A DNA stretch of 64,000 nucleotides, taken from contig JANQQI010000023.1 in the NCBI GenBank assembly GCA_028285085.1, positions 81,717 to 145,716 of the forward strand, written 5' to 3'. Both the position numbers and the translations under genes were made by a program. The notes under the pieces are model-generated. The model was not told where the DNA came from and made no database searches. It saw only the letters and a list, made by a program, of their open reading frames with translations. Source of the stretch: Saprospiraceae bacterium (GTDB taxonomy: Bacteria; Bacteroidota; Bacteroidia; Chitinophagales; Saprospiraceae). Each line of letters begins with the position of its first letter. Within the stretch, counting starts at the first letter, position 1. Positions 2,909 to 64,000 of this stretch are shown here, in pieces.

Positions 2909-2942
2909 TGATAAATGTCATCTTTTGGGATGATAAATGCTC
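2909..2942. promoter_or_regulatory. Candidate paired CRP/FNR-like operator upstream of CBS gene
   Basis: TGATAAATGTCA (2909-2920) and TGATAAATGCTC (2931-2942), 22 bp apart; centres about -86 and -64 from the CBS ATG. Confidence 0.5.
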
Positions 2943-3000
2943 GTCCAGTAAGATTTTAGTTGGATTATCTTGGTGCTATTCATTCGCAAAACATAATAAA

Positions 3001-3432: not shown

Positions 3433-3461
3433 TAACTTACCGGTTATTTCTCAACGCTAAG

Positions 3462-3490
3462 ATGCCCAATGTCACTCCGACATTGGGCAT
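3462..3490. terminator. Bidirectional hairpin between convergent genes
   Basis: Perfect 12-bp stem ATGCCCAATGTC-ACTCC-GACATTGGGCAT. Confidence 0.8.
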
Positions 3491-3568
3491 TGTTAATTAT
3501 CTAACCCTGTAAGTATAAAAAACCAAATAAAAGGTTGTAAAGGCAAAATCGATGGCCATTGATTTCAA

Positions 3569-3940: not shown

Positions 3941-4102
3941 GGCTTTTGAAAAATGTATTAGTTAATACAAGTTGCGCTTAGCTAAAAGAGAGGTTATTTG
4001 TCGTATTATTTCCTTAACTGCAACTTGGGTTAATTGGTAGTCACTAACCGCTGAAATGGTTATTATATGTGGCAAGGTACGCTCTCTTGTCGTATCGTTT
4101 TT

Positions 4103-4136
4103 TGATTCCTGTCAATGAACTGTTTGATCTTTATCA
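4103..4136. promoter_or_regulatory. Candidate paired CRP/FNR-like operator
   Basis: TGATTCCTGTCA (4103-4114) and TGATCTTTATCA (4125-4136), 22 bp apart, upstream of the 3569..3940 gene. Confidence 0.45.
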
Positions 4137-4973
4137 TGTCTTCATGACGAGCATTGGTATCTCTGTTTTTCTCGCCATTTTTTGCGTATAGCTGGGGCGG
4201 AAAAGTCGATCGATGAAGGAGCGCTCGGGACGAAACATCACCAGCAGATCAATCTCAAAGTTTGTCATGAATTCGTTTAGCTTATTTTCAAGCTTGTTAC
4301 TGGTCAGGTGATGAAATTGCGTCTGCAGCCCCAAGGGATGGGATTCAAAATAGGCTCTGAGTTCTTTAAATAGAATGCCTTCATCTGCCTCCTCCTCCTT
4401 TTTACTGATATGTACGATATGAAAAACGGCGCTCAAAGGCGCCAGTAATTGAGAGGCCTTCCAAATTTCAAACGGGTCTGAGGCTTGGATGTCCGTCGCA
4501 TAAGCGATGGTGTGCAAGGGCTGGATATCGGCCTGTTCGGGAATGATGAGCACCGGACAATCCACTCTGGCAATGACACCGCTGCTGACGGTGCCCAGGA
4601 TTTTTTCAATCGTACTGTGCGTACCTTGCGTACCCATAATCACCAAATCAGGCGAATGCGCTTCCACCCATTTCTGGATTATGGCCACCGGACCACCCAC
4701 TTCGACCGAATGTGTGATTTTGGGCGGCGACTTTAGCTGATTACTGACTTGACTCAGGCCATAAGCCACATAATTATCCATGACTTCCCGGGCGGCTTCG
4801 GCCTTCGAACTGATCACATCAGCGGCTAAGGCTGGAATATCGAGGGTATCGGCAATGGGATAAACAACGTGTAGAACGTGCAGCTCCGCTTGTGTTTTAT
4901 CCGCAAAAATCAAGGCGTGTCGAAAGGCATTCTGGGCCGTTTCTGAAAAATCGGTAGGGACTAATATTTTCAT
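4134..4973 (-). CDS. Universal stress protein, tandem UspA domains
   Basis: MKILVPTDFSETAQNAFRHALIFADKTQAELHVLHVV...DLVIMGTQGTHSTIEKILGTVSSGVIARVDCPVLIIPE, plus a second degenerate UspA half. Confidence 0.93.
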   Translation of the reverse strand: MKILVPTDFSETAQNAFRHALIFADKTQAELHVLHVVYPIADTLDIPALAADVISSKAEAAREVMDNYVAYGLSQVSNQLKSPPKITHSVEVGGPVAIIQKWVEAHSPDLVIMGTQGTHSTIEKILGTVSSGVIARVDCPVLIIPEQADIQPLHTIAYATDIQASDPFEIWKASQLLAPLSAVFHIVHISKKEEEADEGILFKELRAYFESHPLGLQTQFHHLTSNKLENKLNEFMTNFEIDLLVMFRPERSFIDRLFRPSYTQKMARKTEIPMLVMKT

Positions 4974-5058
4974 GTTGGATCAATTGAAATTCGTCAAAAA
5001 GACGTTGAAAATTGCTGTTCTGATTCCACAAGGTAAAGGAAGCCGGTTCATCCTCCGG

Positions 5059-5092
5059 TGACCTAAATCATTTTGCTCGGTGATTAAATTCA
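5059..5092. promoter_or_regulatory. Candidate paired CRP/FNR-like operator
   Basis: TGACCTAAATCA (5059-5070) and TGATTAAATTCA (5081-5092), 22 bp apart, in the UspA/lipoprotein divergent spacer. Confidence 0.4.
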
Positions 5093-5158
5093 TCGAGACC
5101 GCTAGCGAAAATCAATGTAAAGCGACCAAACAAGCTGGAAATTGACCTAAAAAGCCAT

Positions 5159-5836
5159 ATGAGATATTTCCTTTATGCAATGTTATTGCTGCTTGGCCTC
5201 ACATTTTTCTATTCTTGTGTACCGGCAGTCGTTTTTGAGGAACCTCAGCCTCAAGGGGCCGAGACACACTCATCTTTTCCCATGATGTACCGCGGTACTT
5301 TCTTATGTAGCTCCGATAGCGCCATTGTATGGATCACGGATAAGTTGGTTTATAAAGAGAAAACCTACTCAGTGACGATGACACAGGTGGAAGTGAATGA
5401 AACGGAAGGCGTTGAATTAATTGGCGACCAACTCTACATCGAATCGATTAACGATCCGGTGAAGGTGGTGACTCAAGGCGACTCCGTTTTTGCCAATGTG
5501 ACCTTACGAGACACCTTGTTTCATCTTGGTAAGGATCAAGTGTTGACCCAATTTCGTGGCCATCAATTACTCAATCGGCAGCTGAAGAGTGGCGATTGGG
5601 AAGTGATGATCCTAAGCATTAATTACGACTTTGATCTCATTCTATCTAAGGCCGTTGAACCCGAAGATCTCGAACAACTTGAATCCATTACGCCCGTCGA
5701 GGATTTGTCACGTGGGGATACGGTCCAATATCGTATTTCACCTTCGGTTTATGAATTCAACCAGATTCTCGAAGAGCAGCTAATTTTTGAGCCTTGCGAC
5801 TATTATGAGCGCGTGCGTTTATCCATCGAAATCTAA
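5159..5836 (+). CDS. Hypothetical lipoprotein
   Basis: Lipobox-like MRYFLYAMLLLLGLTFFYSCVPAVV; no recognised domain. Confidence 0.75.
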   Translation: MRYFLYAMLLLLGLTFFYSCVPAVVFEEPQPQGAETHSSFPMMYRGTFLCSSDSAIVWITDKLVYKEKTYSVTMTQVEVNETEGVELIGDQLYIESINDPVKVVTQGDSVFANVTLRDTLFHLGKDQVLTQFRGHQLLNRQLKSGDWEVMILSINYDFDLILSKAVEPEDLEQLESITPVEDLSRGDTVQYRISPSVYEFNQILEEQLIFEPCDYYERVRLSIEI

Positions 5837-5841
5837 ATCCC

Positions 5842-6360
5842 ATGTCGAAGCCCAAATTGATCCTCGTTGTCGGCTTGCCAGGAACCGGGAAAACCACCTT
5901 CGCAAGCGTACTGTCAGAGTCCCTGTCGATGGTGCATTTAAATAGCGATAAAATTCGAGCTGCCATGGGGCAGCGGGGGCAATATAATGCTGAAGCCAAA
6001 GCGCAGATTTACCATGAGCTAGTTAACCAATGTGAGGTTCATTTGCAAGAAGGTGAAAGTGTCATTGTTGATGCTACCTTTTATAAGGACACCTTAAGGC
6101 AGCCCTATCAAAAGATGGCGGAACAATACAGTTTACCAATTTATTGGATAGAATTACGGGCGGAAGAAACGATTATTCGAGCCAGGGTAGAGCAGAAAAG
6201 AAAATATAGTGAGGCTGATTTTTTAGTGTATAAAAAGATAAAGAAAGAATTTGAGCCATTGAATTATCTTCGCTTAAGCTTGCGCTCGGATTTATTGAGC
6301 TTAGAAGAAATGGTAGAAAAAGCTAAGGAGTATACTTCGATTTTGTTAAATGCCCAATGA
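5842..6360 (+). CDS. P-loop ATP-binding kinase-like protein (COG0645-like)
   Basis: Walker A GLPGTGKTTFA; VIVDATFYKDTLRQPYQKMAEQYSLPIYWIELRA. Confidence 0.82.
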   Translation: MSKPKLILVVGLPGTGKTTFASVLSESLSMVHLNSDKIRAAMGQRGQYNAEAKAQIYHELVNQCEVHLQEGESVIVDATFYKDTLRQPYQKMAEQYSLPIYWIELRAEETIIRARVEQKRKYSEADFLVYKKIKKEFEPLNYLRLSLRSDLLSLEEMVEKAKEYTSILLNAQ

Positions 6361-6369
6361 ATTTAATTC

Positions 6370-7419
6370 ATGACCGAAGTACAAATAAAACAATTACTGA
6401 CCAGTGGAGCCTTTGCTGATTATTCTGAATCACTTGAGCTCGTTGAGACGCATATTTCGTGGGTGATTCTGACGGCTGAATTTGCGTATAAGATTAAAAA
6501 GCCACTCGACTTTTCTTTCCTGGATTTTTCAACGCTCGAAAAACGCTATCATTATTGTCTTCGAGAATTGAAACTCAATCAACGGTTAGCGCCGAGTATC
6601 TATTTGGCAGTTGTCCCCATCCGCGTAAATGCCGGAGGTATTCCTGAATTGGATGGTCCTGAGGGGCAGGTTATTGACTACGCCGTGAAAATGAAACGCC
6701 TGGATCGGCGCTACCAAATGGACGTACTACTTACCAAAGAGCAAGTGACGAAGTCGCAGATGCAACAATTGGCTGATCAATTGGCTCATTTTCATGCTCA
6801 CGCTGATCGAGTGGATACGCCATTTGATATGGATCAAATGCAGTCTGACTTTGCGGACATTCGACAGCTTAACCCGCTGATAGCAGCATCTTTTGGACAA
6901 AAAGCGGTTGAGGTAATTAACGAAGCGATCAATTTCTCAGCGCATTTCTTGCAACAGCATATGTCTCGTTTTCAAGAACGCCAGCAAAAAGGTTTTATAG
7001 TGGACGGGCATGGTGATCTACACACCGAAAATATATTCTTACTCGATGAGCCCGTTATTTTTGATTGTATAGAATTTAGCGATGAATTACGTCAAGTTGA
7101 TGTTTTAAATGAATTGGCTTTTTTGTGTATGGATTTGGAAGCCAACAATCGTATAGATTTAGCGAATTATTTTTTAATGGCTTATCTAAAAAGGTATCCC
7201 GCTATTTTTGATGAAGTGGATCAACTTATTTTTCAGTACTACAAATTGTACCGCACAAATGTGCGACTAAAAGTTAATTTATATAAAGGGATGCAAAGTG
7301 CAAATTCGAAACAGTCGCAAGAGCATATGGATCTAGCGATTCAATATTTTATGCTGCTAAAAAAGTATTTGTCTTCATTTACCAAGATCAATCAACGATC
7401 AAGTTCTGCATCCTTTTGA
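6370..7419 (+). CDS. Aminoglycoside-phosphotransferase-like protein (COG2187-like)
   Basis: VETHISWVILTAEFAYKIKKPLDFSFLDFSTLEKR, IVDGHGDLHTENIFLLDEPVIFDCIEFSDELRQVDVLNELAFLCMDLE. Confidence 0.85.
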   Translation: MTEVQIKQLLTSGAFADYSESLELVETHISWVILTAEFAYKIKKPLDFSFLDFSTLEKRYHYCLRELKLNQRLAPSIYLAVVPIRVNAGGIPELDGPEGQVIDYAVKMKRLDRRYQMDVLLTKEQVTKSQMQQLADQLAHFHAHADRVDTPFDMDQMQSDFADIRQLNPLIAASFGQKAVEVINEAINFSAHFLQQHMSRFQERQQKGFIVDGHGDLHTENIFLLDEPVIFDCIEFSDELRQVDVLNELAFLCMDLEANNRIDLANYFLMAYLKRYPAIFDEVDQLIFQYYKLYRTNVRLKVNLYKGMQSANSKQSQEHMDLAIQYFMLLKKYLSSFTKINQRSSSASF

Positions 7420-7582
7420 TAGTCCTTTCTGTTTTTGTGCAAGTATCATTTATTAGTAATGCTTGAGTTTATCTTAAATTAAAAAAATATTTTAACGCCT
7501 GTCGTTACCTTTTCTCATCTTTCGGGACATTAGTCTGAAGTCGCGCGTGATTTCACATTTTTTAATAAAAAAATATAATAAT

Positions 7583-8638
7583 ATGAAAATGTTGAAATCA
7601 TCGGCTCTAATGAGCCTGATGCTCCTACTGGGTTTGTTGTTTATGTATTCTTGCGGTAAAAAAGAATTAGCACCCGTTGATATACCCGCCGTTGCCGCCG
7701 AAGTTGATATTTTTTCCAAAATTAAAGTTAAGGACGGGATTCTGGCCTTCGAAGATCAAAATCATTACCAGGCCGTTCTGAATACCATGGTGCAAAACCC
7801 AGAGCAAGTGAGAACAGAATTGGCTAAAAAAACTGATTTTGTGTCTTTACAGAATTTACTGAACGAAGATTTAGTGCGCTTTTCTCAAGGCGAGTCTACT
7901 GTTTTAAATGCGGATAAATATTTTACGACCTTGCCAGATGATGATTTAAAAATCATTGACTTTGCATTTTACAGTATTAGCAACCTAATGAATAAAGATG
8001 CTGCCCTGTACATTAATGATCGGTTAATTCAATATACTTCAGACTTTGTGTATACCCTGCATTCGGGCGATCCCGCTGATTTAGGAAAAACCTCACGCAT
8101 TTTGGAAGCCGGTCGTTACGGAGAAATTTATGCGACGAAGGTAGAGACAACTGTATCTGGGGATCAACGTAATGTGATTCGCCATACATGTAAAACAACC
8201 AATGCGGCGGGTACTTTCCAGGTGCGGAATGCCTTGAATGTGCATGCTTTTGCTACACAGGAAAGTGATGGAACTTTTATAAATCAGTTAACTGCTGAGC
8301 TCCGTGTTAGAAAACTTAGAGCAGCAACCGCACCCGATGGGAAATCAGAGTGGAACCCTTATCCTTGTGGTGGGGCCAATATTGATGCAGGAAATATTAA
8401 ACTGCTTTGGGAATCCATATTTATTGATGAGCCATATACGGATCAAACCCAGACAAATCATGCATCAATCCACACATTTTTGATATTATCCCGCACGGAA
8501 AATCCAAACATAAATGTCTTTGATGATATAACCCTGTTCCCTAATAGTCATGGCCTGACTGGTGAATTTGCTCCCGGTAATTGCGCCGTAGATCTTGAGC
8601 AGGTAACAGAATACATTGGTTGTAGTGTTACCTATTAG
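7583..8638 (+). CDS. Hypothetical lipoprotein
   Basis: Lipoprotein signal MKMLKSSALMSLMLLLGLLFMYSCGKKE; start trimmed from 7547. Confidence 0.75.
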   Translation: MKMLKSSALMSLMLLLGLLFMYSCGKKELAPVDIPAVAAEVDIFSKIKVKDGILAFEDQNHYQAVLNTMVQNPEQVRTELAKKTDFVSLQNLLNEDLVRFSQGESTVLNADKYFTTLPDDDLKIIDFAFYSISNLMNKDAALYINDRLIQYTSDFVYTLHSGDPADLGKTSRILEAGRYGEIYATKVETTVSGDQRNVIRHTCKTTNAAGTFQVRNALNVHAFATQESDGTFINQLTAELRVRKLRAATAPDGKSEWNPYPCGGANIDAGNIKLLWESIFIDEPYTDQTQTNHASIHTFLILSRTENPNINVFDDITLFPNSHGLTGEFAPGNCAVDLEQVTEYIGCSVTY

Positions 8639-8703
8639 CACTCCACAGAAACTAATAGAGAAAGAAAATATTTAAGTGTTTGGATATATTTTTTGTAGGA
8701 AAT

Positions 8704-8731
8704 AGTGCCAGTACCCTAAAGTACTGGCACT
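8704..8731. terminator. Bidirectional hairpin
   Basis: AGTGCCAGTAC-CCTAAA-GTACTGGCACT, 11-bp perfect stem between convergent genes. Confidence 0.8.
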
Positions 8732-8734
8732 TCG

Positions 8735-9898
8735 TTATTTGTTTGGTTTAGAGTAACCGTAGGCATCACGAAAATGCTTGCTGATATAGTGATGAGGGAG
8801 CTCAGTAGCCCAGACCTCCTTCGTTTTTCCGCTTACTTTGTAGAATAAGGAAGGATTTGAAAAATGATAATTACGCGTGTGGCTTTGTTTATCTTTTTTA
8901 TCGAAAAGTTGATGAGATAATTCTTTTAAAGGAGATAGTGATTCCTCGGATCGATAAGTTGTGACCAGACATGTTTTATCCTTACCGTTTGTAATGGGAA
9001 TGATTTCGTACTGATCACCACCTACAATCTTTTTTAAATCGCTTTCCGCTTTTATTTTTAAGATTTTTCCCAGAGGGGCAGCTACAAAAATGAAATTGGA
9101 TATTTCTAATAGTACTTTTTTAAACTCTGGATGCCCTCGACCTTTTGCACATAAGGCAAGTTCATCAAAATTATTACCACCCAAGATCCAATTAGAAGTA
9201 AGGATCGTGATATTAAAATGACCTGCTTGGTTGGTTATTTCTTGAAAGCGTTTTCTCGTTTCATTAGGGTCTTCATCGGTGTTCGCCATATATTCACCGA
9301 GCGGATTACCACCAATGAGAATAAAATCATTTTCTTTAAATTTATGTCTACCATATCTGCTTTTGTGTAGTTCCGTGATACCTGCAATATTATTTGTGTA
9401 AAATTTTATTTTATCTCTGATTTCTTTATTAACCTTCATGTGTGGCAAAAAAGAAAAAAGTGGAGAAAGTGTAGAGCCAGAGTCAATGATGATATTAATT
9501 TGTGTGCAATTGTGGTTTGAATTAATTTCTTCTAATTTTTTAGGCAGGATTTTTTTTACGAGCCCTCTGGCTAGTCGAAATTTTTCTTGTGTAAAATGCC
9601 CGCGTCGACGATAATATTGGGAGTTGCGCCAAGTGCTGCCGTAAATTTCATAAAGTAAATTTTCGGTATTGAAAAGTTGATTAAAATAAATAATGACGAT
9701 GCCAACGAGGACTAAAAGCGTAGCGAGAATAAAGGTGAGTAGTAGGAGGTCAAATTGTTGTTCGCTATGGTCTTCACTAAAAAAGAAGTTTGCAAAATAA
9801 GTCCAGATGCTCGTTGCAGCTAAACTAGAAACTAAACCAATCACGAAAGACACTTTATTTTCTCTCGTGATGCGAAATACTTCGTTTAAAAAGTTCAT
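8735..9898 (-). CDS. Two-TM membrane protein with C-terminal DeoR-sensor/ISOCOT-like domain (tentative)
   Basis: Two hydrophobic helices, then INIIIDSGSTLSPLFSFLP, IKFYTNNIAGITEL, FILIGGNPLGEYM, NFDELALCAKGRGHPEFKKVLLEISNFIFVAAPLGKILK. Start trimmed to MNFLNEV. Confidence 0.6.
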   Translation of the reverse strand: MNFLNEVFRITRENKVSFVIGLVSSLAATSIWTYFANFFFSEDHSEQQFDLLLLTFILATLLVLVGIVIIYFNQLFNTENLLYEIYGSTWRNSQYYRRRGHFTQEKFRLARGLVKKILPKKLEEINSNHNCTQINIIIDSGSTLSPLFSFLPHMKVNKEIRDKIKFYTNNIAGITELHKSRYGRHKFKENDFILIGGNPLGEYMANTDEDPNETRKRFQEITNQAGHFNITILTSNWILGGNNFDELALCAKGRGHPEFKKVLLEISNFIFVAAPLGKILKIKAESDLKKIVGGDQYEIIPITNGKDKTCLVTTYRSEESLSPLKELSHQLFDKKDKQSHTRNYHFSNPSLFYKVSGKTKEVWATELPHHYISKHFRDAYGYSKPNK

Positions 9899-10063
9899 AT
9901 AAAATGCTTTTGTAATGAGTAGGCTGTCCAATAGCTGAAATCGTGCTATTGGTTTAAGCAATTTTATACAAACACTTCTCTCTGATTGGCGCTTGGGCCG
10001 AACGAAAATTTATGAAAGATACTGTTTTCTAGTTCAAATTGGTGATAATTACCAGCAAAATGC

Positions 10064-10747
10064 CTACTCGTCGAGCCACCACTCTGCATTTTCGATCCAC
10101 GCGGCGGGATAAGTACGATCCTTGCCTTGGCCATTAAAGATCTCCTTGAGAACGGCTTTTTTGTTGGCGCCCGGCACTAGGAAGTGAATGGAGCGGGCGG
10201 CATTGATGATGCGTCCGGTTAGGGTAATCCGCTGCTGTCCCGTTTCTGGGTGCGAAGCCACGGCGCAGGGACGCGGATGATGTAAAAGATCAATTTGGTG
10301 AGGAAAGATCGAGGCCGTATGACCGTCAGCGCCCATCCCCAGGATAATCATATCGAATATTGGCAGCCCTCCTTTGAGTGGCAGATGATCAATGAGTAGT
10401 TGGCCGTAACGCTGCGCTTCAATCATGGGAGGATCTTCTCCTCGCATGCGGTGGACATTTTCGGTGGGGATGTCGATGAATTGCAATAAGCGATCGTCCG
10501 TCATGCCGTAATTACTTTCTCCATCTGTGGGAGGCACACAACGTTCATCTCCCCAATACAAATGTACTTTTGACCAATCGATTGATTGAGCATATTGCTG
10601 GGCCAAGGCGTCAAAAAGCAATTTGGGTGTACTGCCACCGGATAAAGCGAGGTGAAATACTTCTACTGATGCAATCGCTTCGACCAGATATGCCGCAAAA
10701 GCTTCTGCTACGGCCGGAGGATTTGGAAAGGTGTGTTGTGTTCTCAT
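10064..10747 (-). CDS. pgl: 6-phosphogluconolactonase
   Basis: LALSGGSTPKLLFDALA, VHLYWGDERCVPPTDGESNYGM, ILGMGADGHTASIFP; directly downstream of zwf. Confidence 0.95.
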   Translation of the reverse strand: MRTQHTFPNPPAVAEAFAAYLVEAIASVEVFHLALSGGSTPKLLFDALAQQYAQSIDWSKVHLYWGDERCVPPTDGESNYGMTDDRLLQFIDIPTENVHRMRGEDPPMIEAQRYGQLLIDHLPLKGGLPIFDMIILGMGADGHTASIFPHQIDLLHHPRPCAVASHPETGQQRITLTGRIINAARSIHFLVPGANKKAVLKEIFNGQGKDRTYPAAWIENAEWWLDE

Positions 10748-12264
10748 TACAATTCAATAAAACTGCCATTAGTGGTTAATTCACTGCAGGGGTTACGCCA
10801 GGTCATCCGTTCTGAGCTGCTTAGCTTGGATACGACCATGGGCCCCCAACTACCGACCGGGTAGCCGTATACTTTGATGTCGGGCTTATTCTGCCAGGCA
10901 TCGAGAATCGGAGCGACAAAGCGCCAGGCTTCTTCTACTGAGTCACCTCTCGCGTAGAGGGTTGCATCACCTTTGATGACATCCAATAGGAGGCGCTCGT
11001 AGGCCGTTGGGACCTCAGTGTCTGTCAAGTCTGTGTAGTGGAAATCCATGCCGACATCTTTGACTTTAAATCCAGAGCCTGGAATTTTCATCCCAAATTT
11101 TAGTAGCAAGCCTTCATCCGGTTGGATACGAATGATCAGCTGATTATTATCGTTTTGCATCGTTTTTTCCTGTCGGAATAAGGTATGCGGTGGGTCTTTG
11201 AATGTGATGACAACCTCGGTTACCTTAGTCGGCAAGGCTTTCCCGGAACGTACATAAAATGGTACACCGGCCCATCGCCAGTTGTCAATGAAAAACTTGA
11301 GCGCAACGTAAGTTTCCGTCCGTGAATCGTGAGGTACGCCCTCTTCTTCCCGATACCCATTTATTTGGTGCTCCCCGATGATTGAACCAGTATATTGACC
11401 GCGAATCACAAATTGTGGGACATCCTCTTCTTTAATCGGGCGAATTGATTGTAAGACTTTTAGCTTTTCGTTGCGGATGGCCGAAGCATTGGCCGCAATC
11501 GGCGGCTCCATTGTCAAGTGAGCGATAATCTGCATCAGATGATTCTGGAACATATCTCGTAAGGCCCCGGATTTATCGTAATATCCACCACGACTCCCCA
11601 CTGTGAGGTTTTCGGCATTTGTGATCTGCACATGCTGGATATAATTCCGATTCCAAAGCGGTTCAAAAATACCGTTGGCGAAGCGCGTCACTAATAAGTT
11701 TTGCACAGTCTCTTTACCCAGATAATGATCAATGCGATAGATCTGATCTTCCGAAAAATACTGACGAAGGGAATGATTCAAAGCTACTGCTGTTTGCAGG
11801 TCATAGCCAAAGGGTTTTTCGATGACCAAACGCCGCCAGCCTTGATTGGATTGATTCAAGCCGTGAGCTGCAAGGCAAGATGGAATGATGGGGTAGAGAA
11901 ATGGGGGAGTAGACAGGTAAAAAATGTAGTTACTCTCCGTTTTGTACACCTCGTCCATTTCCGCCAACTTACTTTTCACTTTCGCGTAATCTTCCGATAC
12001 TGCGGTTTGTATAGCCAGATAGGACAGGCGTTGCGCAAACGCTTTTTGTCGCTCTGCATCACCATCTTTTAAATCAATAAATTCACTATCGTAGAACACC
12101 TTCTTCTGGAAGGCCTCATCCGAATAGTCGGAACGACTGACCCCAAGAACGGCAAAATTTTCCGGTAAGTATTTACCCAGATACAATTCGTAAAGGGCGG
12201 GAATGAGCTTTCGAACGGCTAAATCACCCGAAGCACCAAAAATTACAAAGATTACACCATCCAT
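10747..12264 (-). CDS. zwf: Glucose-6-phosphate 1-dehydrogenase
   Basis: VIFVIFGASGDLAVRKLIPALYELY, RLVIEKPFGYDLQTA, YRIDHYLGKETVQNLLVTRFAN; ORF extends to 12333 but MDGVIF is the likelier start. Confidence 0.96.
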   Translation of the reverse strand: MDGVIFVIFGASGDLAVRKLIPALYELYLGKYLPENFAVLGVSRSDYSDEAFQKKVFYDSEFIDLKDGDAERQKAFAQRLSYLAIQTAVSEDYAKVKSKLAEMDEVYKTESNYIFYLSTPPFLYPIIPSCLAAHGLNQSNQGWRRLVIEKPFGYDLQTAVALNHSLRQYFSEDQIYRIDHYLGKETVQNLLVTRFANGIFEPLWNRNYIQHVQITNAENLTVGSRGGYYDKSGALRDMFQNHLMQIIAHLTMEPPIAANASAIRNEKLKVLQSIRPIKEEDVPQFVIRGQYTGSIIGEHQINGYREEEGVPHDSRTETYVALKFFIDNWRWAGVPFYVRSGKALPTKVTEVVITFKDPPHTLFRQEKTMQNDNNQLIIRIQPDEGLLLKFGMKIPGSGFKVKDVGMDFHYTDLTDTEVPTAYERLLLDVIKGDATLYARGDSVEEAWRFVAPILDAWQNKPDIKVYGYPVGSWGPMVVSKLSSSERMTWRNPCSELTTNGSFIEL

Positions 12265-12435
12265 TGGCTGAGCTTTCGTCGAAGTTTTAGGATTGAAACC
12301 TATTAGCGGATGTCGAAAGGCCGACAAAGCCAAAGGCCCCCAAATCTAAAAATTTGTCACCAGAAAATAGGCGAAGTCCTTCGCATTTAAATTACATTTA
12401 TGCAATATTCTTTCAAAATACAACCAACTTAAATA

Positions 12436-13845
12436 ATGAGCGAACAATTGTACGATTTTGGTATGGTCGGGCTCGGGGTAATGGGCCGCAATTTTTTATT
12501 AAACGTCGCCGATAATGGCTATTCGATTATTGGCTTGGATACAGACAAAGGGCGGGCCGCAGCGATTGAGGCGGAGGCCGAAGGCAAACCAGCGAAAGGA
12601 ACAACGGATATGAAAACCTTTGTGGCAGCTTTGAAGACGCCACGTAAAATTATGCTATTGGTACCCGCCGGCAAGATTGTCGATGCGGTGATCAATAGTT
12701 TACTCGAATTTGTGGAGCCGGGAGATTTAATTATCGACGGGGGGAATTCCTTTTTTGTGGATACCGATCGCCGATTGGCACATTTAAAAGATAAGAAAAT
12801 TGATTTTCTGGGAGTGGGGGTATCCGGTGGTGCAAAAGGAGCGCGTTTCGGACCCAGCATCATGCCCGGTGGTACGAAAAGAGCCTATAATAAGGTGAGA
12901 AAAATCTTGGAGGCGGTCTCTGCAAAAGTGGGTGGAGAACCTTGCGTCGCCTACATGGGTAAAGGCTCGGCTGGTAACTACGTTAAGATGGTGCACAATG
13001 GCATTGAATACGCTATGATGCAACTCCTGGCTGAGAGCTACGATATTTTGAAGCATATTGGGCGTCTCAGCAATGCTGAGTTACACGCTGCTTTTGCGAA
13101 ATACAATCGCGGTCGTCTGAGATCATTTTTGGTTGAAATTACGGCGGCGATCTTCCAACAAGAGGATGAACTTGGCAAAGGGATGCTCATTGATAAGATC
13201 CTCGACAAAGCCAAGCAAAAAGGGACGGGTAAGTGGACTTCTCAAAATGCAATGGATTTTGGTATTCCTGTGCCAACTATCGATGCGGCGGTGACTATGC
13301 GTGGTATTTCGGCTTTGAAGTCCGAGCGCGAAGCAGCAGCAGAAGTTTTGAAAGTACGGACATCCAAAGCAAAGGTGGATAAAAACCAATTGGTTAAAAC
13401 CGTGGGGGATGCCTTATACTTTGCCTTTATCACAGCCTATGCACAGGGGCTTGCTTTGCTAGCTGATGCTTCCCGTGAGAAAAAATATGGCTTGGATATG
13501 GAGGCCATCGCCCGAATTTGGCGGGGCGGCTGCATTATTCGCGCAGCTTTGCTGGAAGATATCCGCCAAGCCTACTCCGCGCAGCCGGAACTACCAAACC
13601 TGATGGTTGACCCAGCCTTTGCCAAAAAGTTACGCAGTACCCAAGCTGCTACACGTGGGATGATTAAGCAAGCTATTGATGCAGGGATTCCAACTTTAGC
13701 CTTTTCAACTTCGTTGGCTTATTTTGATGCTTATCGTGATGGCCGCTTGCCGTTGAATTTGGTACAAGCGCAGCGCGATCATTTCGGTTCGCACACTTAC
13801 GAGCGAACGGATCGCGAAGGGATTTTCCATACGGAATGGAAGTAA
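12436..13845 (+). CDS. gnd: 6-phosphogluconate dehydrogenase, decarboxylating
   Basis: FGMVGLGVMGRNFLLNVADNGYS, LIIDGGNSFFVDTDRR, GVGVSGGAKGARFGPSIMPGG, YVKMVHNGIEYAMMQLLAESYD. Confidence 0.97.
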   Translation: MSEQLYDFGMVGLGVMGRNFLLNVADNGYSIIGLDTDKGRAAAIEAEAEGKPAKGTTDMKTFVAALKTPRKIMLLVPAGKIVDAVINSLLEFVEPGDLIIDGGNSFFVDTDRRLAHLKDKKIDFLGVGVSGGAKGARFGPSIMPGGTKRAYNKVRKILEAVSAKVGGEPCVAYMGKGSAGNYVKMVHNGIEYAMMQLLAESYDILKHIGRLSNAELHAAFAKYNRGRLRSFLVEITAAIFQQEDELGKGMLIDKILDKAKQKGTGKWTSQNAMDFGIPVPTIDAAVTMRGISALKSEREAAAEVLKVRTSKAKVDKNQLVKTVGDALYFAFITAYAQGLALLADASREKKYGLDMEAIARIWRGGCIIRAALLEDIRQAYSAQPELPNLMVDPAFAKKLRSTQAATRGMIKQAIDAGIPTLAFSTSLAYFDAYRDGRLPLNLVQAQRDHFGSHTYERTDREGIFHTEWK

Positions 13846-13869
13846 GGCTAGTTGTGATGCATTAATAGT

Positions 13870-14352
13870 ATGAAAAGCTATATTCAAAAAATCAGATCAA
13901 AGCTCGGCCGGGAGAAGTTTATTCATCCGGCCGCGCGCATTATTATTGAGAATGAACGGCAAGAGATATTAGTCCTCGAACGTACGGATAACGGCCAAAT
14001 CGGCCTCCCAGCCGGCGCCCTCGAAGAAGGAGAAACTATAGCAGCTTGTATCAAGCGTGAAGTGTGGGAAGAAACAGGCCTGGAGATTTCTGAATTGACG
14101 TTAATCGGTATTAGTTCTGATCCGAAGATCGAGTCCGTCACCTATCCTAATGGGGATCAAATCCAGTACTTCACCATCGAATTCTATACGAACCAATGGC
14201 AAGGCGAGCTCCAGGTTATTGATACTGAAGAGGTAAAACGAGCGGCATTTATGCCAAAGATTGAGGTGCTCACTCAACTACCACCGAATGAATTATCGGC
14301 TTTTGATAGTTTGCAGCATTATCGAGACCTAGGGCAGGTGCGCTTAGCGTGA
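13870..14352 (+). CDS. NUDIX hydrolase
   Basis: Nudix box GALEEGETIAACIKREVWEETGLEISEL. Confidence 0.92.
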   Translation: MKSYIQKIRSKLGREKFIHPAARIIIENERQEILVLERTDNGQIGLPAGALEEGETIAACIKREVWEETGLEISELTLIGISSDPKIESVTYPNGDQIQYFTIEFYTNQWQGELQVIDTEEVKRAAFMPKIEVLTQLPPNELSAFDSLQHYRDLGQVRLA

Positions 14353-14433
14353 AAGTTTAGCCCTAATCCTGTTGATTAAAGTTTGCAACTTTCACCAAAG
14401 ATGCCAAAGCAATCCTCTTAATTCCACCACATT

Positions 14434-16602
14434 TTACCCCAACTCCAACGGTATCTCTCGCAATCGTTTATTCGTCAAACGGAATACTGCATTCGCAATT
14501 GCAGCGCCGATAGGACCAAGTGGGGGTTCACCCACCGCGCCCGGTTTCTCATCATTTTCTAAGATAACCACATCAATTTCTTTTGGCGCATGCTTCATCA
14601 TGGCCATTCGATAAGGGCCATAAATAGTGGGTGTCAGTTGACCATCCTTAACGTCCATTTTCTCAAACAGTGTGGCGCTCAGTCCCATGATAATCGAGCC
14701 TTCGCACTGCGCGCGCACCTGATCGGGATTCACCGCGATACCGGGATCGATCACACAGGTGACCTTGTGGACTTTGATAGCACCATCTTCAATGGACACT
14801 TCCACCACGTGAGCACAGGGCGTATTGGCATCCGTAGAAGCGGCGAAGCCCATCGCACGGCCATCGACTACGCCATCTCGCCAGCCCGCCTTGTCGGCAG
14901 CGGCCTTAATGACCTCTCGGAGTCGGAATCCGCGCTTGTCATCCTGAATTTGGTCGAGGCGGAATTGTACGGGGTCTTTGCCCGCTTTGATGGCCAGTTC
15001 ATCCATGAAGCACTCAATAGCAAAGGTATTGGCTAGCAAGCCGAGGCTGCGCCAGAAACTGGTCGCAAAAGGGAGTTTTACTCGCCAAGATATCGCCCGG
15101 AAATTCGGAATCTTGCCGTATTGAATCATACCACCACGCCAAGCTCCAACGTCTGCACCAAGTAGCGTACTGGCAAATCCGGGGGTGATGGCCGAACCGA
15201 ACATGACATCACCACTAGATACATTGTGCTCGATCGCTTTGATCAGCCCGTCTTCGTTCAACTTAGCGCGCAATACATGATGTGTGGGCGGGCGGAAGGT
15301 ATCATTTTGAAATTCTTCCTTGCGATCAAAAAAGCATTTGACCGGTTTACCAACGGCTTTCGATAAGAGGGCTGCTTGAACAGCATTTGGCGTATGAAGG
15401 CGTCGACCGAAGCCACCTCCCAAATAAGTAGGTTGGATATTGACTTGCTCCGCGTCAAAACCTAAGCGTTTCGCTACTTCTTTGCGGGTAACATCCGGTA
15501 CCTGCGTTGAAAGAATCAGAGTCGCTTTGTCATTTTCTACGAATGCTACCGCGCCATTTGGTTCTATTTGCGCGTGGGCGCCAATGGGACTTTTGAATTC
15601 CGAGGTGATAATCTCAGATTCGTTATCAAGAATACGCTTTGCCTTCCCCGTTTTTTGAATCACGAAAGGTTTACCTTCGCCGACTTTGATCAAGGCTTCG
15701 ATATCTGCCGTTTGCCAATCTCGCTCTACAGCCCATTCTACCTTAAGTGCTCTTTTAGCATTTTCGGCGGCCATGCGGGAAGTCGCAACGACGCCTACAA
15801 AGTCTTTTTCTTTAACCACCTTGACCACATCGGGCATGCCTTCTGCTGCACTGATGTCCGCATCGACGTATTTCGCACCAATTTGGGTGGGACGCGCCAC
15901 GGCACCGTATAGCATGTCTGGCATATCTGCATCCATTCCGAAAATGGGGGCACCCAATACCTTATCTTCCAAATCTACTCGCGGGATAGGTTTCCCAACA
16001 AATTTATAGGACTTGATATCTTTCAATGGTGGCGTGTCGGGAATATCCCATTCTTTGACTTCCTTGACGACATCACCGTAGGTGAGTGATTTTCCATTGC
16101 CCGTAATAACGCCTTCGCTTACGCTCAAGCTCGCGACGTCAGTACCGATGATTTTTGCAGCTTCATTTTTAAGCATCTCCCGCATTGTGGCGGATAGCTC
16201 GCGCAGCGGTTGCCAAAGCCCGGAAACCGAGGTACTCCCTCCGGTTGCAAAAGGATCAACATTGCCCGAAGAAGTAGGAGCGTGAAGCACCTTCATTTGA
16301 TCGATTCGCAATTCCAGCTCATCCGCCGCGATTTGTGCCAAGCTCGTAAAGGTGCCTTGACCCATTTCTACTTTCGGACTATAGAGAATCACCTCGTTAT
16401 TAGCCGTGATCTCAAACCACATCGGCGGACTTGAAGTACTGCCCATATAGGGGGCATCGACGGTATTGGCATAATCCGCAAGCGTACGGCGCCAGATGGA
16501 GCGGGTGAAATAACCAGTTCCAACCAGTACACCAACACCAATGGCCGAGCGGACAAGAAATTTTCGTCGGGAGAAGCCTTTTTTCTTTATGTTTTTGCTC
16601 AT
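14434..16602 (-). CDS. Xanthine dehydrogenase-family molybdopterin-binding subunit (isoquinoline 1-oxidoreductase beta-like), Tat-exported
   Basis: Tat motif SRRKFLVRSAIG; KVEMGQGTFTSLAQIAADEL, PTYLGGGFGRRLHTPNAVQAALLSKAVGKPVK, GEPPLGPIGAAIANAVF. Confidence 0.94.
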   Translation of the reverse strand: MSKNIKKKGFSRRKFLVRSAIGVGVLVGTGYFTRSIWRRTLADYANTVDAPYMGSTSSPPMWFEITANNEVILYSPKVEMGQGTFTSLAQIAADELELRIDQMKVLHAPTSSGNVDPFATGGSTSVSGLWQPLRELSATMREMLKNEAAKIIGTDVASLSVSEGVITGNGKSLTYGDVVKEVKEWDIPDTPPLKDIKSYKFVGKPIPRVDLEDKVLGAPIFGMDADMPDMLYGAVARPTQIGAKYVDADISAAEGMPDVVKVVKEKDFVGVVATSRMAAENAKRALKVEWAVERDWQTADIEALIKVGEGKPFVIQKTGKAKRILDNESEIITSEFKSPIGAHAQIEPNGAVAFVENDKATLILSTQVPDVTRKEVAKRLGFDAEQVNIQPTYLGGGFGRRLHTPNAVQAALLSKAVGKPVKCFFDRKEEFQNDTFRPPTHHVLRAKLNEDGLIKAIEHNVSSGDVMFGSAITPGFASTLLGADVGAWRGGMIQYGKIPNFRAISWRVKLPFATSFWRSLGLLANTFAIECFMDELAIKAGKDPVQFRLDQIQDDKRGFRLREVIKAAADKAGWRDGVVDGRAMGFAASTDANTPCAHVVEVSIEDGAIKVHKVTCVIDPGIAVNPDQVRAQCEGSIIMGLSATLFEKMDVKDGQLTPTIYGPYRMAMMKHAPKEIDVVILENDEKPGAVGEPPLGPIGAAIANAVFRLTNKRLREIPLELG

Positions 16603-16613
16603 GATTCTTGCTT

Positions 16614-17081
16614 TTAGATGTTGGTATTTTTAATGGCGGCAGCTCGGTGGATAGCTTTTCGCATCCGATAATAAGTCGCACATCGGCAGATATTGACAAT
16701 GTTATCGTCAATATCTTGATCGGTAGGATTAGGAATTTTTTCCAGAAGTGCGGCAGTAGCCATCATAAATCCCGGTTGACAATAACCGCATTGCGGGACC
16801 ACTTCTTCGATCCAGGCTTGTTGCACCGGATGTAAATTATCGGCATCACCTAAGCCTTCGATGGTGGTAATGCTTTTACCTTCGGCATATTTTAAGGCAA
16901 AGGAACAGGAACGAACCGATTCGCCGTCGACGTGGATGGTACAGGCACCACAAGCCGCTTTACCGCAGCCAAACTTGGTTCCTTTAAGGTTGAGAACATC
17001 TCTGATTACCCAAAGCAGAGGTGTGTTTTCGTCGACGTCGACACTTTGGGGCTGTCCATTTAGAAGGAAGGAAATTGCCAT
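16614..17081 (-). CDS. (2Fe-2S)-binding protein (isoquinoline 1-oxidoreductase alpha-like)
   Basis: [64 protein letters not shown]. Confidence 0.95.
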
Positions 17082-17119
17082 ATTTAGAAAGTTGGATGTT
17101 TTAAATAATTAAAATTGAT

Positions 17120-17743
17120 CTACTGCTCGGGGATCGGTGCACCGGCTGCGGCCCAAGCCTTGACCGCTTCGATATATTCATCAACGGGTACCGGTGGTTT
17201 TTCGCGAGGTGTCCCGCTCGCATCAATGCCAGGTTCCCAGGCCCAAAGGACGAGCTCATGCTCGGTCAAGTGCTTGACCGTTTCTTCGAGCGATCGGCCA
17301 CCGTTAATTTCGGGATCGAGGATAGATCGCGCAATTTCAACGCGAGACTTGCCTTCCCAAGCCATTTTGCTTGGTGCCAGGCTCCACTCCGGGGCGCCGG
17401 GCACACCGGAGTAGTTGTTGTTCTCGTGTTGGTGACAGCTCTCACAGCGCAAAGCTGGCAGGCCATGGTTATCGGCACCGCGTTGCACGCCGAAATTATG
17501 TAAGTGGCTATCTTCTCCCTGCCGTGGTCGATCCCCGGAGGGATGACAATTGACGCAGCGCTTATGCGTAAGTACAGCCATCATTTTATCAAAAGGGGAA
17601 TCTGCTATTGCTTCATTTTGAGAAACATTTTCAGTTGTGGTTTCGGCTGGCTCATTTTCATTGCTTGCAGTAGAAGCTAGACCAATGACGGCCACTACGA
17701 TGGCTAGAGAAAGGGCTGGAATTAGAAATCGGGTCTTTTTCAT
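17120..17743 (-). CDS. Periplasmic c-type cytochrome with two CxxCH motifs
   Basis: Signal/anchor helix plus CVNCH and CESCH; adjacent to the iorAB-like genes. Confidence 0.88.
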   Translation of the reverse strand: MKKTRFLIPALSLAIVVAVIGLASTASNENEPAETTTENVSQNEAIADSPFDKMMAVLTHKRCVNCHPSGDRPRQGEDSHLHNFGVQRGADNHGLPALRCESCHQHENNNYSGVPGAPEWSLAPSKMAWEGKSRVEIARSILDPEINGGRSLEETVKHLTEHELVLWAWEPGIDASGTPREKPPVPVDEYIEAVKAWAAAGAPIPEQ

Positions 17744-17749
17744 TGGTAT

Positions 17750-18271
17750 TTACAATTCGTATTTTTTTAATAATAGTGCTTGGAAGGGGATTTGGCTTTC
17801 TTTCCCTTTTTGGAGGGCTCCAATCCCTAGACTATCCAGGGTTTGTTCGAGCAGTTTTGCTTCGACTTCTGGTTGTTCATAGCCCAATTGCTGAAAGGCT
17901 TCGATCAGCTTATCAACCAGCGGTTTGGTCTTGTCGGGATTGAAATATTCTTTTTCCCACTTCAGCTTATACTGTAATCGCCAGAAGTCATACTCGCTTT
18001 CGGGCACGTTAAAAGGCATATTAATCGTTTTGCGGATCACCTCTCGTGGATCTGTTTCTTGGATAATGGTTTCAAAAAGCACCGCCAAACGCGTTTCGGC
18101 TTCTTGCATAATGGCATTTAGTAAGCCTTTTTTATTTTCAAAGTGTCGGAAAATCAATCCTTCGGAAACGCCCGCTTGCTTAGCAATTCTACTCGTAGAA
18201 ACGGCGTTGTAGCCATCGTTTGCAAAGAGCATTAATGCCGTTGCAATTAATCTTTCTTTTTTGTCTGTCAT
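17750..18271 (-). CDS. TetR-family transcriptional regulator
   Basis: KERLIATALMLFANDGYNAVSTSRIAKQAGVSEGLIFRHFENKKGLLNAIM. Confidence 0.93.
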   Translation of the reverse strand: MTDKKERLIATALMLFANDGYNAVSTSRIAKQAGVSEGLIFRHFENKKGLLNAIMQEAETRLAVLFETIIQETDPREVIRKTINMPFNVPESEYDFWRLQYKLKWEKEYFNPDKTKPLVDKLIEAFQQLGYEQPEVEAKLLEQTLDSLGIGALQKGKESQIPFQALLLKKYEL

Positions 18272-18532
18272 GGGGAAGTTGTTCCAGTCTTCGAGAATAA
18301 ATAGTGAGTAATCACTTCTAAATGTAGCAAAAGTTTTTACAATTTGAAAAGGGGAGGAGATAAAAAATTAAAAAAATACCTTTTGAGAAGTATTGTTTCA
18401 CTTCAAAACGTAATAATTAATGACCTCATTTTAGAATAATGGGATGGAATCGAAATCATATACTGACTTCATTTCAAATGAACTATTTTTATCAGATAAG
18501 AATTGAAAGTACCGACTAATGCATATGATAAA

Positions 18533-19906
18533 ATGAAAATTACCGGAAAAACTTTGATTGAGCTTGGCTATCAACCAGGAAAGTGGTTTAGAGAGGCACT
18601 GACTTATGCGAATGCCCACCAATTATCGGGTGATGCTTTGATCGCTTTTTTGGATAGCAAGCAGCCTAAGATTGTTGAACCCCACCTTGAAGGGCGACCT
18701 TATCACAAAAATATTCGGGCGGAGAGTGAGCAAGAGGAGGCCAACGTCAATGCTGTTTTCAAAACGATGGACGAATTGATGAAAACACCGACGATTATTG
18801 ATGGTGCCGTAATGCCCGATGCCTGTCCGACTGGTGGGATAGGGCGAATTCCGGTAGGAGGAGTAGTGGCGGCACGCGATGCCATCCATCCGGCGATGCA
18901 TAGTGCAGATATTTGCTGCTCGGTGATGATGACCTCATTTGGCTACGTTGAACCAAAGCGTGTTCTGGACGCTGCCCATCGGGTAACGCATTTCGGCGGC
19001 GGCGGTCGCAAGGATACCTTTGATTTACCGGAGCAGCTGGAAAAGGAAATTCGTGGCAACTACTTTTTGCGTAATGAAAGAAGTTTACATCTGGCTAAAA
19101 CACATCTGGGTACCCAAGGGGATGGTAATCACTTTTTATACGTAGGGCAATCAGAAAACACCGGTGAAACCATCATGGTTACCCACCATGGAAGTCGCGG
19201 TTTTGGTGCGCACTTGTACAAACAAGGGATGCAAGTCGCCGAGAAATTCCGACAGGAAGTGTCACCTAAGGCTCTAAAAGCAAATGCCTGGATTCCGTAT
19301 TCTCACGAATTAGGTGCACGCTACTGGGACGCTTTGCAGATTGTACGAGCTTGGACCAAGCTCAACCACACGGTTTTGCACGATGCGACTTGTGCCGGAT
19401 TGAACGTTGATCCTCGCCAGCGATTTTGGAACGAGCACAATTTTGTCTTCAAGTCCGAAGAGGATGTATTCTACCACGCCAAGGGCGCTACGCCGCTTGA
19501 TGATCGTTTCGTGCCAGACTCGCTGGACGGCTTGCGCTTGATTCCATTGAATATGAGTGAGCCTGTCTTGATTGTTCGAGGCAAAACGACCGCGACAAAC
19601 CTTGGCTTTGCGCCTCACGGCGCGGGTCGCAATGTAAGCCGTTCACAGCATATTCGCAGAAAAGCGGATCGTTCGGTGGATGCTGTGTTTGCAGAAGAAA
19701 CTCAGGGCTTAGACGTCCGTTTCTTTTCAAAAAATGTCGACTTATCCGAATTGCCATCAGCTTATAAAAATGCGCGGAATGTGCAAGCACAAATGGAAGA
19801 GTTTGGATTGGGCGAAGTAGTTGACCGTGTGATTCCCTATGGTTGTATCATGGCGGGTGACTGGAAAATCGATGCCCCCTGGCGCCGCAAACGAAAGCGG
19901 CGCTAG
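18533..19906 (+). CDS. rtcB: RtcB-family RNA ligase
   Basis: AVMPDACPTGGIGRIPVGGVVAARDAIHPAMHSADICCSVM, LGTQGDGNHFLYVG, VTHHGSRGFGAHLYKQGM, PHGAGRNVSRSQHIR. Start trimmed from 18503. Confidence 0.9.
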   Translation: MKITGKTLIELGYQPGKWFREALTYANAHQLSGDALIAFLDSKQPKIVEPHLEGRPYHKNIRAESEQEEANVNAVFKTMDELMKTPTIIDGAVMPDACPTGGIGRIPVGGVVAARDAIHPAMHSADICCSVMMTSFGYVEPKRVLDAAHRVTHFGGGGRKDTFDLPEQLEKEIRGNYFLRNERSLHLAKTHLGTQGDGNHFLYVGQSENTGETIMVTHHGSRGFGAHLYKQGMQVAEKFRQEVSPKALKANAWIPYSHELGARYWDALQIVRAWTKLNHTVLHDATCAGLNVDPRQRFWNEHNFVFKSEEDVFYHAKGATPLDDRFVPDSLDGLRLIPLNMSEPVLIVRGKTTATNLGFAPHGAGRNVSRSQHIRRKADRSVDAVFAEETQGLDVRFFSKNVDLSELPSAYKNARNVQAQMEEFGLGEVVDRVIPYGCIMAGDWKIDAPWRRKRKRR

Positions 19907-19967
19907 CTATTTTTGTCGGCTTTTTACGGCATAATGTCTACCTTTGGTATATAAAACACGATAGTCT

Positions 19968-20201
19968 ATGCTCGCCATTCTACTATTTTTCGGTCTTGGA
20001 GGTTATGAGTTACTCATCATTGGTCTGGTGTTGCTTTTACTCTTTGGCGGTAGCCGCATGACAGGACTGACCCGAGAGATCGGGAAAGGCATGAAGATGT
20101 TCAATGATACCAAGGCGACTCTGGAGAATGAACTCAAGGGCGGCTTACGCCCTGATCGCCCGGAGGATAGCAGTGAAAAGTCTTCTTCCGAAGAGAAGTA
20201 G
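19968..20201 (+). CDS. tatA: Twin-arginine translocase TatA/TatE subunit
   Basis: LGGYELLIIGLVLLLLFGGSRMTGLTREIGKGMKMFNDTK. Confidence 0.88.
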   Translation: MLAILLFFGLGGYELLIIGLVLLLLFGGSRMTGLTREIGKGMKMFNDTKATLENELKGGLRPDRPEDSSEKSSSEEK

Positions 20202-59812: not shown

Positions 59813-60532
59813 TTAGGCACCATCCATTTTCTGTCGATATTGATAGGGATTCCTACCGCGTGACTCCTTTTTTAATTCGGGTAAGCGTTCGAAAACGCCT
59901 AAGGATAGCATCTTTTTTTGAAACCTACTGCGATCCAATTTTTTCTCGAGGATGGATTGATAGAGTTGGTGTAACTCCGGCATGGTGAAAGCCTTGGATA
60001 GTAAGTTGTGAACGACTACTTCGTGCTTCGCATCTTCCTTGAGCCGATTTCTCGCTTTAAGGACGATCGACTTGTGGTCCATCCACATATCGGGCAAGTC
60101 ATCGAAACTAAACCAAGCATAATCACTAAAAAAGTCATCGACTTGCGGGTGCGTATGTTCAATATTGACCAAGGAATAATAAGCTAGCGTTACAAATCGG
60201 TTGTTAAACCAATAATCCTTATTCCACGTCATCCCAGACTTTTTAAAGAAAGCCTTAAACTCCTCGCTAAATTCGCGATCGTGATTACCAAAGACGGATA
60301 AGAATTTTAGGTGTGGATCTTCTAAGCTCGTCCGTTCTTCTAGGATTCGCTTTACTGACTCGTCTACAGATTCTTCGATTTTGACATAGCCACCGGGTAC
60401 CAACCACTTATCGCCAAATTTTAATAATAGGCATTTGAGATCATCTTCCTCGTACCCAATAATTACCAAGTCAATGGATAAGTTGGGTAAAAAATAGTCG
60501 TTTCCATGCGCTAATAGTTTCTGATAATCCAT
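59813..60532 (-). CDS. NUDIX-domain transcriptional regulator with C-terminal winged HTH (NrtR-family-like)
   Basis: LSIDLVIIGYEEDDLKCLLLKFGDKWLVPGGYVKIEESVDESVKRILEERTSL; C-term VHNLLSKAFTMPELHQLYQSILEKKLDRSRFQKKMLSLGVFERL. Start trimmed from 60595. Confidence 0.88.
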   Translation of the reverse strand: MDYQKLLAHGNDYFLPNLSIDLVIIGYEEDDLKCLLLKFGDKWLVPGGYVKIEESVDESVKRILEERTSLEDPHLKFLSVFGNHDREFSEEFKAFFKKSGMTWNKDYWFNNRFVTLAYYSLVNIEHTHPQVDDFFSDYAWFSFDDLPDMWMDHKSIVLKARNRLKEDAKHEVVVHNLLSKAFTMPELHQLYQSILEKKLDRSRFQKKMLSLGVFERLPELKKESRGRNPYQYRQKMDGA

Positions 60533-60580
60533 GTCCCAAAGATATAATTTGCGTTTTTCAGGCACAAATACTTTATTTAT

Positions 60581-60628
60581 GTGTCGTTTTGCCACAAAAT
60601 ACTTATTATATTCGTGTCATATTGTCAC
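60581..60628. promoter_or_regulatory. Two tandem imperfect palindromes, candidate operators of the NUDIX-HTH regulator
   Basis: GTGTCGTTTTGCCACAAAATA (from 60581) and GTGTCATATTGTCACAAAATA (from 60614), 33 bp apart in the divergent spacer. Confidence 0.6.
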
Positions 60629-60643
60629 AAAATAGTTAAATGT

Positions 60644-63122: not shown

Positions 63123-64000
63123 CTATTCCTCCAGTATCGCTTCGTCAAAGTGATAATACTGCAGTTCCCCCTCAGCATCCCGCTTGACCCAGTTGATATA
63201 TGGCCAGGCCTCCTTACTATAGTCCAATAGGCGCCCATCCTCATGGACGGCATAATTTTCCTCCGGGAGATGCTGAAAAATACGGCTCTGTCCGGTAGAC
63301 AAATCCCACCAGCGCATGGTGTCATCGTTTGAGCAAGAGAGTGCTTTATCCGCACCGATGGGGACACAGAGGAGGACCCAGTTAGTATGTCCTTTTAGGG
63401 TATGAATGACTTGTCCGTTGTTGAGATTCCATAGGATGAGGTTGTTGTCGTAAGAGCAAGAGAGTGCTTTATCCGCCCCGATGGGGACGCAGTGTCGGAC
63501 AGCATTCTTATGTCCTTTTAGGGTATGAATGACTTGTCCGTTGTTGAGATTCCATAGGATGAGGTTATTGTCGTCCGAGCAAGAGAGTGCTTTATCCGCG
63601 CCGATGGGGACGCAGTGGAGTACAGCATTCGTATGTCCTTTTAGGGTATGAATGGCTTGCCCGTTGTTGAGATTCCACAGGATGAGGTTTTTGTCGTCCG
63701 AGCAAGAGAGTACTTTATCCGCGCCGATGGGGACGCAGTGGAGTACAGCATTCGTATGTCCTTTTAGGGTATGAATGGCTTGTCCGTTGTTGAGATTCCA
63801 TAGGATGAGGTTGTTGTCGTAAGAGCAAGAGAGTGCTTTATCCGCCCCGATGGGGATGCAGTGGAGGACATAATTCGTATGTCCTTTTAGGGTATGAATG
63901 GCTTGTCCGTTGTTGAGATTCCATAGGATGAGGTTTTTGTCGTCCGAGCAAGAGAGTGCTTTATCCACTCCGATGGGGACGCAGTGTCGGACCCAGTCCG
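63123..64000 (-). CDS. WD40-repeat protein, 5' part outside the window
   Basis: 41-aa/123-bp repeats HTLKGHTNAVLHCVPIGADKALSCSDDNNLILWNLNNGQ. The frame stays open to 64000 (DWVRHCVPIGVDKALSC...), so the track start at 63968 is not the gene start. Confidence 0.92.
   Translation of the reverse strand, partial: DWVRHCVPIGVDKALSCSDDKNLILWNLNNGQAIHTLKGHTNYVLHCIPIGADKALSCSYDNNLILWNLNNGQAIHTLKGHTNAVLHCVPIGADKVLSCSDDKNLILWNLNNGQAIHTLKGHTNAVLHCVPIGADKALSCSDDNNLILWNLNNGQVIHTLKGHKNAVRHCVPIGADKALSCSYDNNLILWNLNNGQVIHTLKGHTNWVLLCVPIGADKALSCSNDDTMRWWDLSTGQSRIFQHLPEENYAVHEDGRLLDYSKEAWPYINWVKRDAEGELQYYHFDEAILEE

Follow-up and report, generated by a model that had tools for sequence, protein, structure and literature searches.

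The 64,000-nucleotide stretch analysed here (the window) covers positions 81,717 to 145,716 of contig JANQQI010000023.1 (C118 below) in the Saprospiraceae bacterium assembly GCA_028285085.1, and its right end carries a tandem array of WD40 units that is probably the sensor of an NLR-type receptor. Tandem Repeats Finder (TRF) places the array at 63331-63986 with a period of 123 bp, 5.3 copies, 92% matches and 0% indels, by a wide margin the strongest tandem repeat of the window. The anchor CCTTTTAGGG, from which a sequence-only reading of this DNA had deduced the repeat, does recur exactly at 63391, 63514, 63637, 63760 and 63883 with a spacing of 123 bp. The array is coded on the minus strand by a frame of 291 amino acids (aa) that is open from the window edge to a stop at 63123; it begins with a partial unit, continues with four complete units of 41 aa each and a terminal unit that has diverged, and ends in a C-terminal cap (Table 1). 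The frame matches the Pfam WD40 family (E=3e-28), and an AlphaFold2 prediction of the array (pLDDT 74, pTM 0.70) gives a fold for which the Foldseek matches are WD40 propellers, among them the highly repetitive 2ymu.

The array frame is cut at the window edge, as contig C118 stops at 145716, the last base of the window, and the missing N-terminus is an assembly break. A 281-aa open reading frame starting with GTG was rejected as the true gene start, as the frame is cut by the contig end. Since the contig ends inside the array, the number of units seen is a minimum. In the whole assembly, which is 99.4% complete, the 123-bp unit is confined to two contig right ends, those of C118 and of a second contig, C81, and the strands are compatible with a right-end to right-end join. 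The right end of C81 has a frame of 1022 aa that is still open where the contig stops and that holds two whole units plus a portion of a third. This third unit differs from the first C118 unit at positions 4, 5 and 14, so the two are distinct units and the gene, if single, has at least nine. The nearest relative (L092, from a Chitinophagales metagenome-assembled genome) has a single 1767-aa frame with 42% identity over 633 aa to the NACHT region of the C81 receptor, and this frame ends in a cap 45% identical to that of the window. Because the unit is restricted to two contig ends and L092 holds both halves in one open reading frame, we infer that C81 and the window almost certainly form one NLR gene, a join strongly backed by L092. 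The same ends could instead belong to two different repeat-sharing receptors, each lacking its partner in the assembly; they share no exact overlap, no read or contig spans them, and the C81 and C118 units differ more from each other than the C118 units do among themselves. Two genes are nonetheless very unlikely when the unit sits at exactly two ends of compatible orientation in so complete an assembly, when the genome yields a single NACHT gene of the C81 type, and when a relative has both halves in one frame. The GH3 and AraC genes on the flanks were also compared for synteny as a test of the join, but the relatives from the genus and family offered no neighbourhood that was informative.

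From its N-terminus the C81 receptor is ordered as an NNH6 domain (residues 26-107; 27.0-28.9 bits, of which 27.0 is at the cut-off), a TIR-like region, a NACHT domain (residues 368-559; Pfam 28.8 bits versus a cut-off of 26.7), a pentapeptide stretch and the WD40 units. The Walker A and Walker B motifs of the NACHT domain, LLGQYGMGKT and LIIFDGLDE, are conserved in the alignment. As in bacterial NLRs there is a C-terminal repeat sensor, represented by WD40 units on both contig ends and present in relatives with a single open reading frame, and there is an N-terminal effector or adaptor part, represented by NNH6 and a degenerate TIR with an effector TIR in trans. Specifically, a 168-aa TIR_2 gene lies upstream and overlaps the receptor start by four bases. 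Its product matches the ThsB model (E=9e-10) and has the catalytic glutamate, in a KDHEL context; the internal TIR region of the receptor reads WYAS and is without that glutamate, whereas the overlapping TIR keeps both the SYA-type motif and the residue. The neighbouring stand-alone TIR is the probable killing enzyme, with the receptor appearing to retain a dead copy. The sequence-only reading had supposed that an effector such as NACHT or TIR may lie in the N-terminus outside the window, and this agrees with a C81 frame that has NACHT and is overlapped by a TIR effector gene, given the inferred join; an N-terminus with no effector or NTPase domain, which it had counted as evidence against itself, is not what C81 contains. 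A sequence search of solved structures with the receptor gave only weak matches, to the pentapeptide part, and one with the TIR-NACHT profile gave no match.

Variation among the units falls at few sites, with three to five residues at each of positions 3, 4, 5, 7 and 22 and two at position 24. Paoletti et al. 2007 (PMC1805685) reported positive selection on codons 7, 9, 25 and 27 of the fungal HET genes, which lie at the propeller top on either side of the conserved codons 8 and 26. The equivalent unit positions are 5 and 7, which enclose V6, and 22 and 24, which enclose D23. With the four HET sites as an a-priori set, 104 of the 101,270 possible quartets of unit columns are as variable as they are, and the ratio of nonsynonymous to synonymous differences (pN/pS) is 1.12 at the HET sites against 0.14 in the 34 columns outside a seven-position hotspot set. 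The same is seen in 27 arrays of relatives from several phyla, where within-array entropy is highest at columns 23, 5, 7, 4, 25 and 3 (numbered over 42 columns; they match the six of the window units) and pN/pS is 1.14 at hotspots against 0.29 elsewhere, ratios that describe but do not test selection as unit pairs are non-independent. The sites are indeed of the kind that vary in HET-D and HET-E, as the sequence-only reading had proposed, both here and in the 27 arrays. Its further claim that variation is confined to such positions is right as to concentration but too strict, in that positions 6, 8, 10, 11, 14, 16, 17 and 36 also carry two residues, and the third residue, D, that it gave for position 24 falls in the diverged last unit. 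Selection for recognition, which it had thought likely, is favored by the hotspot concentration; however, judged from these sequences a hotspot pN/pS of about 1.1 shows rapid, relaxed or diversifying change and not formal positive selection.

That ratio also fits relaxed constraint, and Hu et al. 2017 (PMC5587647) treat highly repetitive WD40s as recent duplications, so that the array could simply be young and neutrally homogenised, its variable sites being surface positions free to vary with no selection for recognition. We regard this as unlikely, because the same six columns rank highest across several phyla, because the hotspots overlap those of the fungal HET genes, whose specificity is established, and because the hotspot combination is different in all six units with complete data. 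Much less probable still is that a diversity-generating retroelement (DGR) writes the variation, as happens to NACHT-linked sensors in other bacteria (PMC10907252). The single RVT_1 match of the genome lies on a different contig, in a frame of 206 aa that lacks a DGR-type SQ motif, and hotspot codons vary at third positions too, beyond what one adenine-rich template would give. The array was accordingly rejected as a DGR target on the basis of this lone non-DGR reverse transcriptase frame, with no separate search for a template repeat. The 206-aa frame, which has reverse transcriptase motifs, adjoins a 352-aa frame (contig C63, L172) and is perhaps a disrupted or defence-type reverse transcriptase.

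None of the genus or family genomes searched carries the gene, save for one weak partial match, and its distribution looks sporadic. A phylum search finds the receptor family mainly in small genomes of the Chlorobiaceae, and an alignment scan adds Verrucomicrobia, Myxococcota, Acidobacteria, Proteobacteria, Actinomycetes and others; single-protein scans of genome contigs and viral contigs returned no relatives, although the alignment scan found them. Homologous frames run off their contig in 39 of 80 cases, and Podospora provides a documented example of short-read assembly failing in arrays of this kind (PMC12222747). Among closed frames the commonest unit count is 14 (10 frames), then 13 and 15, and L092 has 21, with profile counts that can err by one. 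A count of fourteen would correspond to two propellers of seven blades each, as in 2ymu, whose blade number is estimated from its length. Of 372 units in the relatives' arrays, 331 have their closest match within their own array, where about 3% is expected by chance, and mean unit identity is 0.68 within arrays and 0.43 between them. These sequences indicate that the units evolve in concert, by homogenisation within arrays.

In many relatives the receptor TIR has an SYA-type motif and the glutamate, and the glutamate is absent from the internal TIR of the C81 receptor, the L092 adaptor and the L093 receptor; all 20 stand-alone TIRs keep it. L093 has the gene order seen here, a TIR gene followed by an NNH6-like region, a degenerate TIR and NACHT. 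In L092, the NACHT-WD40 receptor is accompanied by two further genes, one for the TIR and one for an NNH6-degenerate-TIR protein, and we argue that parts fused here but separate there work together. Note that these two L092 genes (10339-12039) lie downstream of the receptor, in reversed order relative to that observed here. An active-looking fused TIR without a stand-alone one is present at 39 of 81 homologous loci, and a stand-alone TIR without an active-looking fused one at 20; 22 loci have neither and none has both, a count in which contigs that end early could hide some stand-alone TIRs. The exclusion has a Fisher p of 1e-7 without correction for kinship, and the pattern is unaffected by L138, scored as split but possibly a frameshifted single gene. 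The NACHT tree requires about eight changes between TIR states, and every informative independent pair on its starred branches (4-5 of 6) points the same way (sign test, p 0.06-0.125), so once kinship is counted the mutual exclusion is suggestive, not proven. The split-TIR arrangement appears to be new, and no description of a stand-alone TIR paired with a dead-TIR receptor was found in the open-licence papers searched.

Additional variants were observed at several loci. The degenerate TIRs of L107, L130, L133, L155, L160, L163 and L166 have a recurrent (Y/F/H)AE motif instead of SYAH, hinting that the dead TIR may be a conserved module and not mere decay. The 22 loci with neither an active-looking fused nor a nearby stand-alone TIR include L104, L116, L121, L127, L142 and L171. 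The receptors of several Chlorobiaceae loci, L074, L076 and L083 among them, carry a further ATPase-like module (PRRYGKTSLIKRVQ) on the N-terminal side of the TIR, from its sequence a third effector arrangement in the same receptor family.

Taken together, we consider it likely that the array is the sensor of an NLR of the STAND/NACHT type, built as NNH6, pseudo-TIR, NACHT, pentapeptide stretch and WD40 units with an overlapping upstream stand-alone TIR, and that it serves a WD40-sensing, NACHT-switched and TIR-executed defence or self-recognition. In such a system the top of the WD40 propeller, with residues that differ from blade to blade, would bind a ligand derived from an intruder or from altered self, and binding would free NACHT for nucleotide-dependent oligomerisation. 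The oligomer would then cluster the stand-alone TIR enzymes through the catalytically dead TIR, presumably by TIR-TIR contact, and the clustered enzymes would use up NAD+ or synthesise a signal nucleotide, which would halt the cell or the invading phage. In bacterial conflict systems, recruiting effectors through adaptors is an established strategy (PMC8195603). Unequal exchange and conversion between near-identical units, combined with selection at exposed positions, could generate new specificities. HET-D and HET-E, which act in self/non-self recognition, are the closest functional analogue in architecture and variable sites, but the bacterial TIR and NACHT proteins of known role serve in defence against phage (cited in PMC10907252), so a role in kin recognition instead of phage defence seems rather improbable. 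Several points weigh against this model as a whole. Besides the unbridged contig ends and the modest hotspot ratio, the internal TIR is weakly detected, by a custom profile (E=4e-4) and not by Pfam; none of the curated defence models, PADLOC 2.0 included, matches the NACHT part of the receptor; and the ligand, oligomerisation, NAD+ consumption and phage defence are suggested by analogy with the NACHT and TIR families. More tentatively, and at somewhat less than even chances, the receptor may stand for a multi-phylum family that diversifies its recognition by shuffling near-identical WD40 blades, in the manner of fungal allorecognition genes, and in which the killing enzyme was repeatedly transferred to a gene of its own, the dead TIR being kept probably for docking.

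Table 1. Features of the receptor gene at the right end of the window.
Feature	Position	Strand	Remarks
3' part of NLR-type receptor gene, cut at contig end	63123..64000	-	putative 5' part: G000:C81:58138-61203 (L010:4139-7204)
Partial WD40 unit (unit positions 4-41), at contig break	63885..63998	-	
Complete 123-bp WD40 unit	63762..63884	-	variable residues T N Y. L / Y. N
Complete 123-bp WD40 unit	63639..63761	-	variable residues T N A. L / D. K
Complete 123-bp WD40 unit	63516..63638	-	variable residues T N A. L / D. N
Complete 123-bp WD40 unit	63393..63515	-	variable residues K N A. R / Y. N
Terminal WD40 unit	63270..63392	-	first half resembles other units, second half diverged (NDDTMRWWDLSTGQSRIF)
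Conserved C-terminal cap (HLPEENYAVHEDGRLLDYSKEAWPYINW...)	63123..63272	-	45% identity over 44 aa to L092 NACHT-WD40 receptor cap

Elsewhere in the window, a 33-bp tandem repeat of 2.3 copies (AAATACTTATTATATTCGTGTCATATTGCCACA) lies at 60566-60638 between the genes for a NUDIX-type regulator and a GH3 glycosidase. The regulator gene (59813-60595) is divergent, and the repeat may be its operator. A plasmid search with positions 1-20000 of the window gave no match.

The locus gives a bacterial test case for asking whether the WD40 arrays of NLRs in prokaryotes diversify in the service of recognition, like those of HET-D and HET-E. The exclusion between fused and stand-alone TIRs leads to a concrete prediction, namely that NLR effectors can be supplied in trans via a catalytically dead homologue. 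Because nearly half of the homologous frames are cut by assembly, the number of such receptors is probably underestimated.

Highly repetitive bacterial WD40 proteins with variable hotspots are already known, as are bacterial NLRs. The survey of the former (Hu et al. 2017, PMC5587647) describes the same high internal identity and the same diversity at predicted interaction hotspots; its main text has no mention of NACHT, and effector arrangement is not treated. The bNACHT and Avs STAND proteins share the N-terminal effector, central NACHT/STAND NTPase and C-terminal repeat sensor (PMC10907252), but the sensor here consists of near-identical WD40 units and the receptor TIR is decayed and apparently replaced in trans. 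APAF-1 and the DUF4062-NACHT-WD40 proteins NWD1 and TEP1 likewise have a STAND NTPase followed by WD40 propellers, two in APAF-1, but differ in their N-terminal effectors, and near-identical WD40 units are not reported there (PMC13174449). The stand-alone TIR resembles ThsB of Thoeris; however, no ThsA-like partner is among the neighbouring frames listed, and the TIR here is linked to a NACHT receptor. Finally, the fungal HNWD proteins HET-D, HET-E and HET-R share NACHT with near-identical WD40 units and within-array homogenisation (PMC1805685, PMC12222747), the same four variable top-surface positions and the same failure of short-read assemblies in the array, but they have a HET effector domain where NNH6 and TIR are found here, and their units are 42 aa long. 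By this analogy the Saprospiraceae receptor would work like a HET-type NLR without being a member of that family, a similarity of arrangement for which we do not claim orthology.
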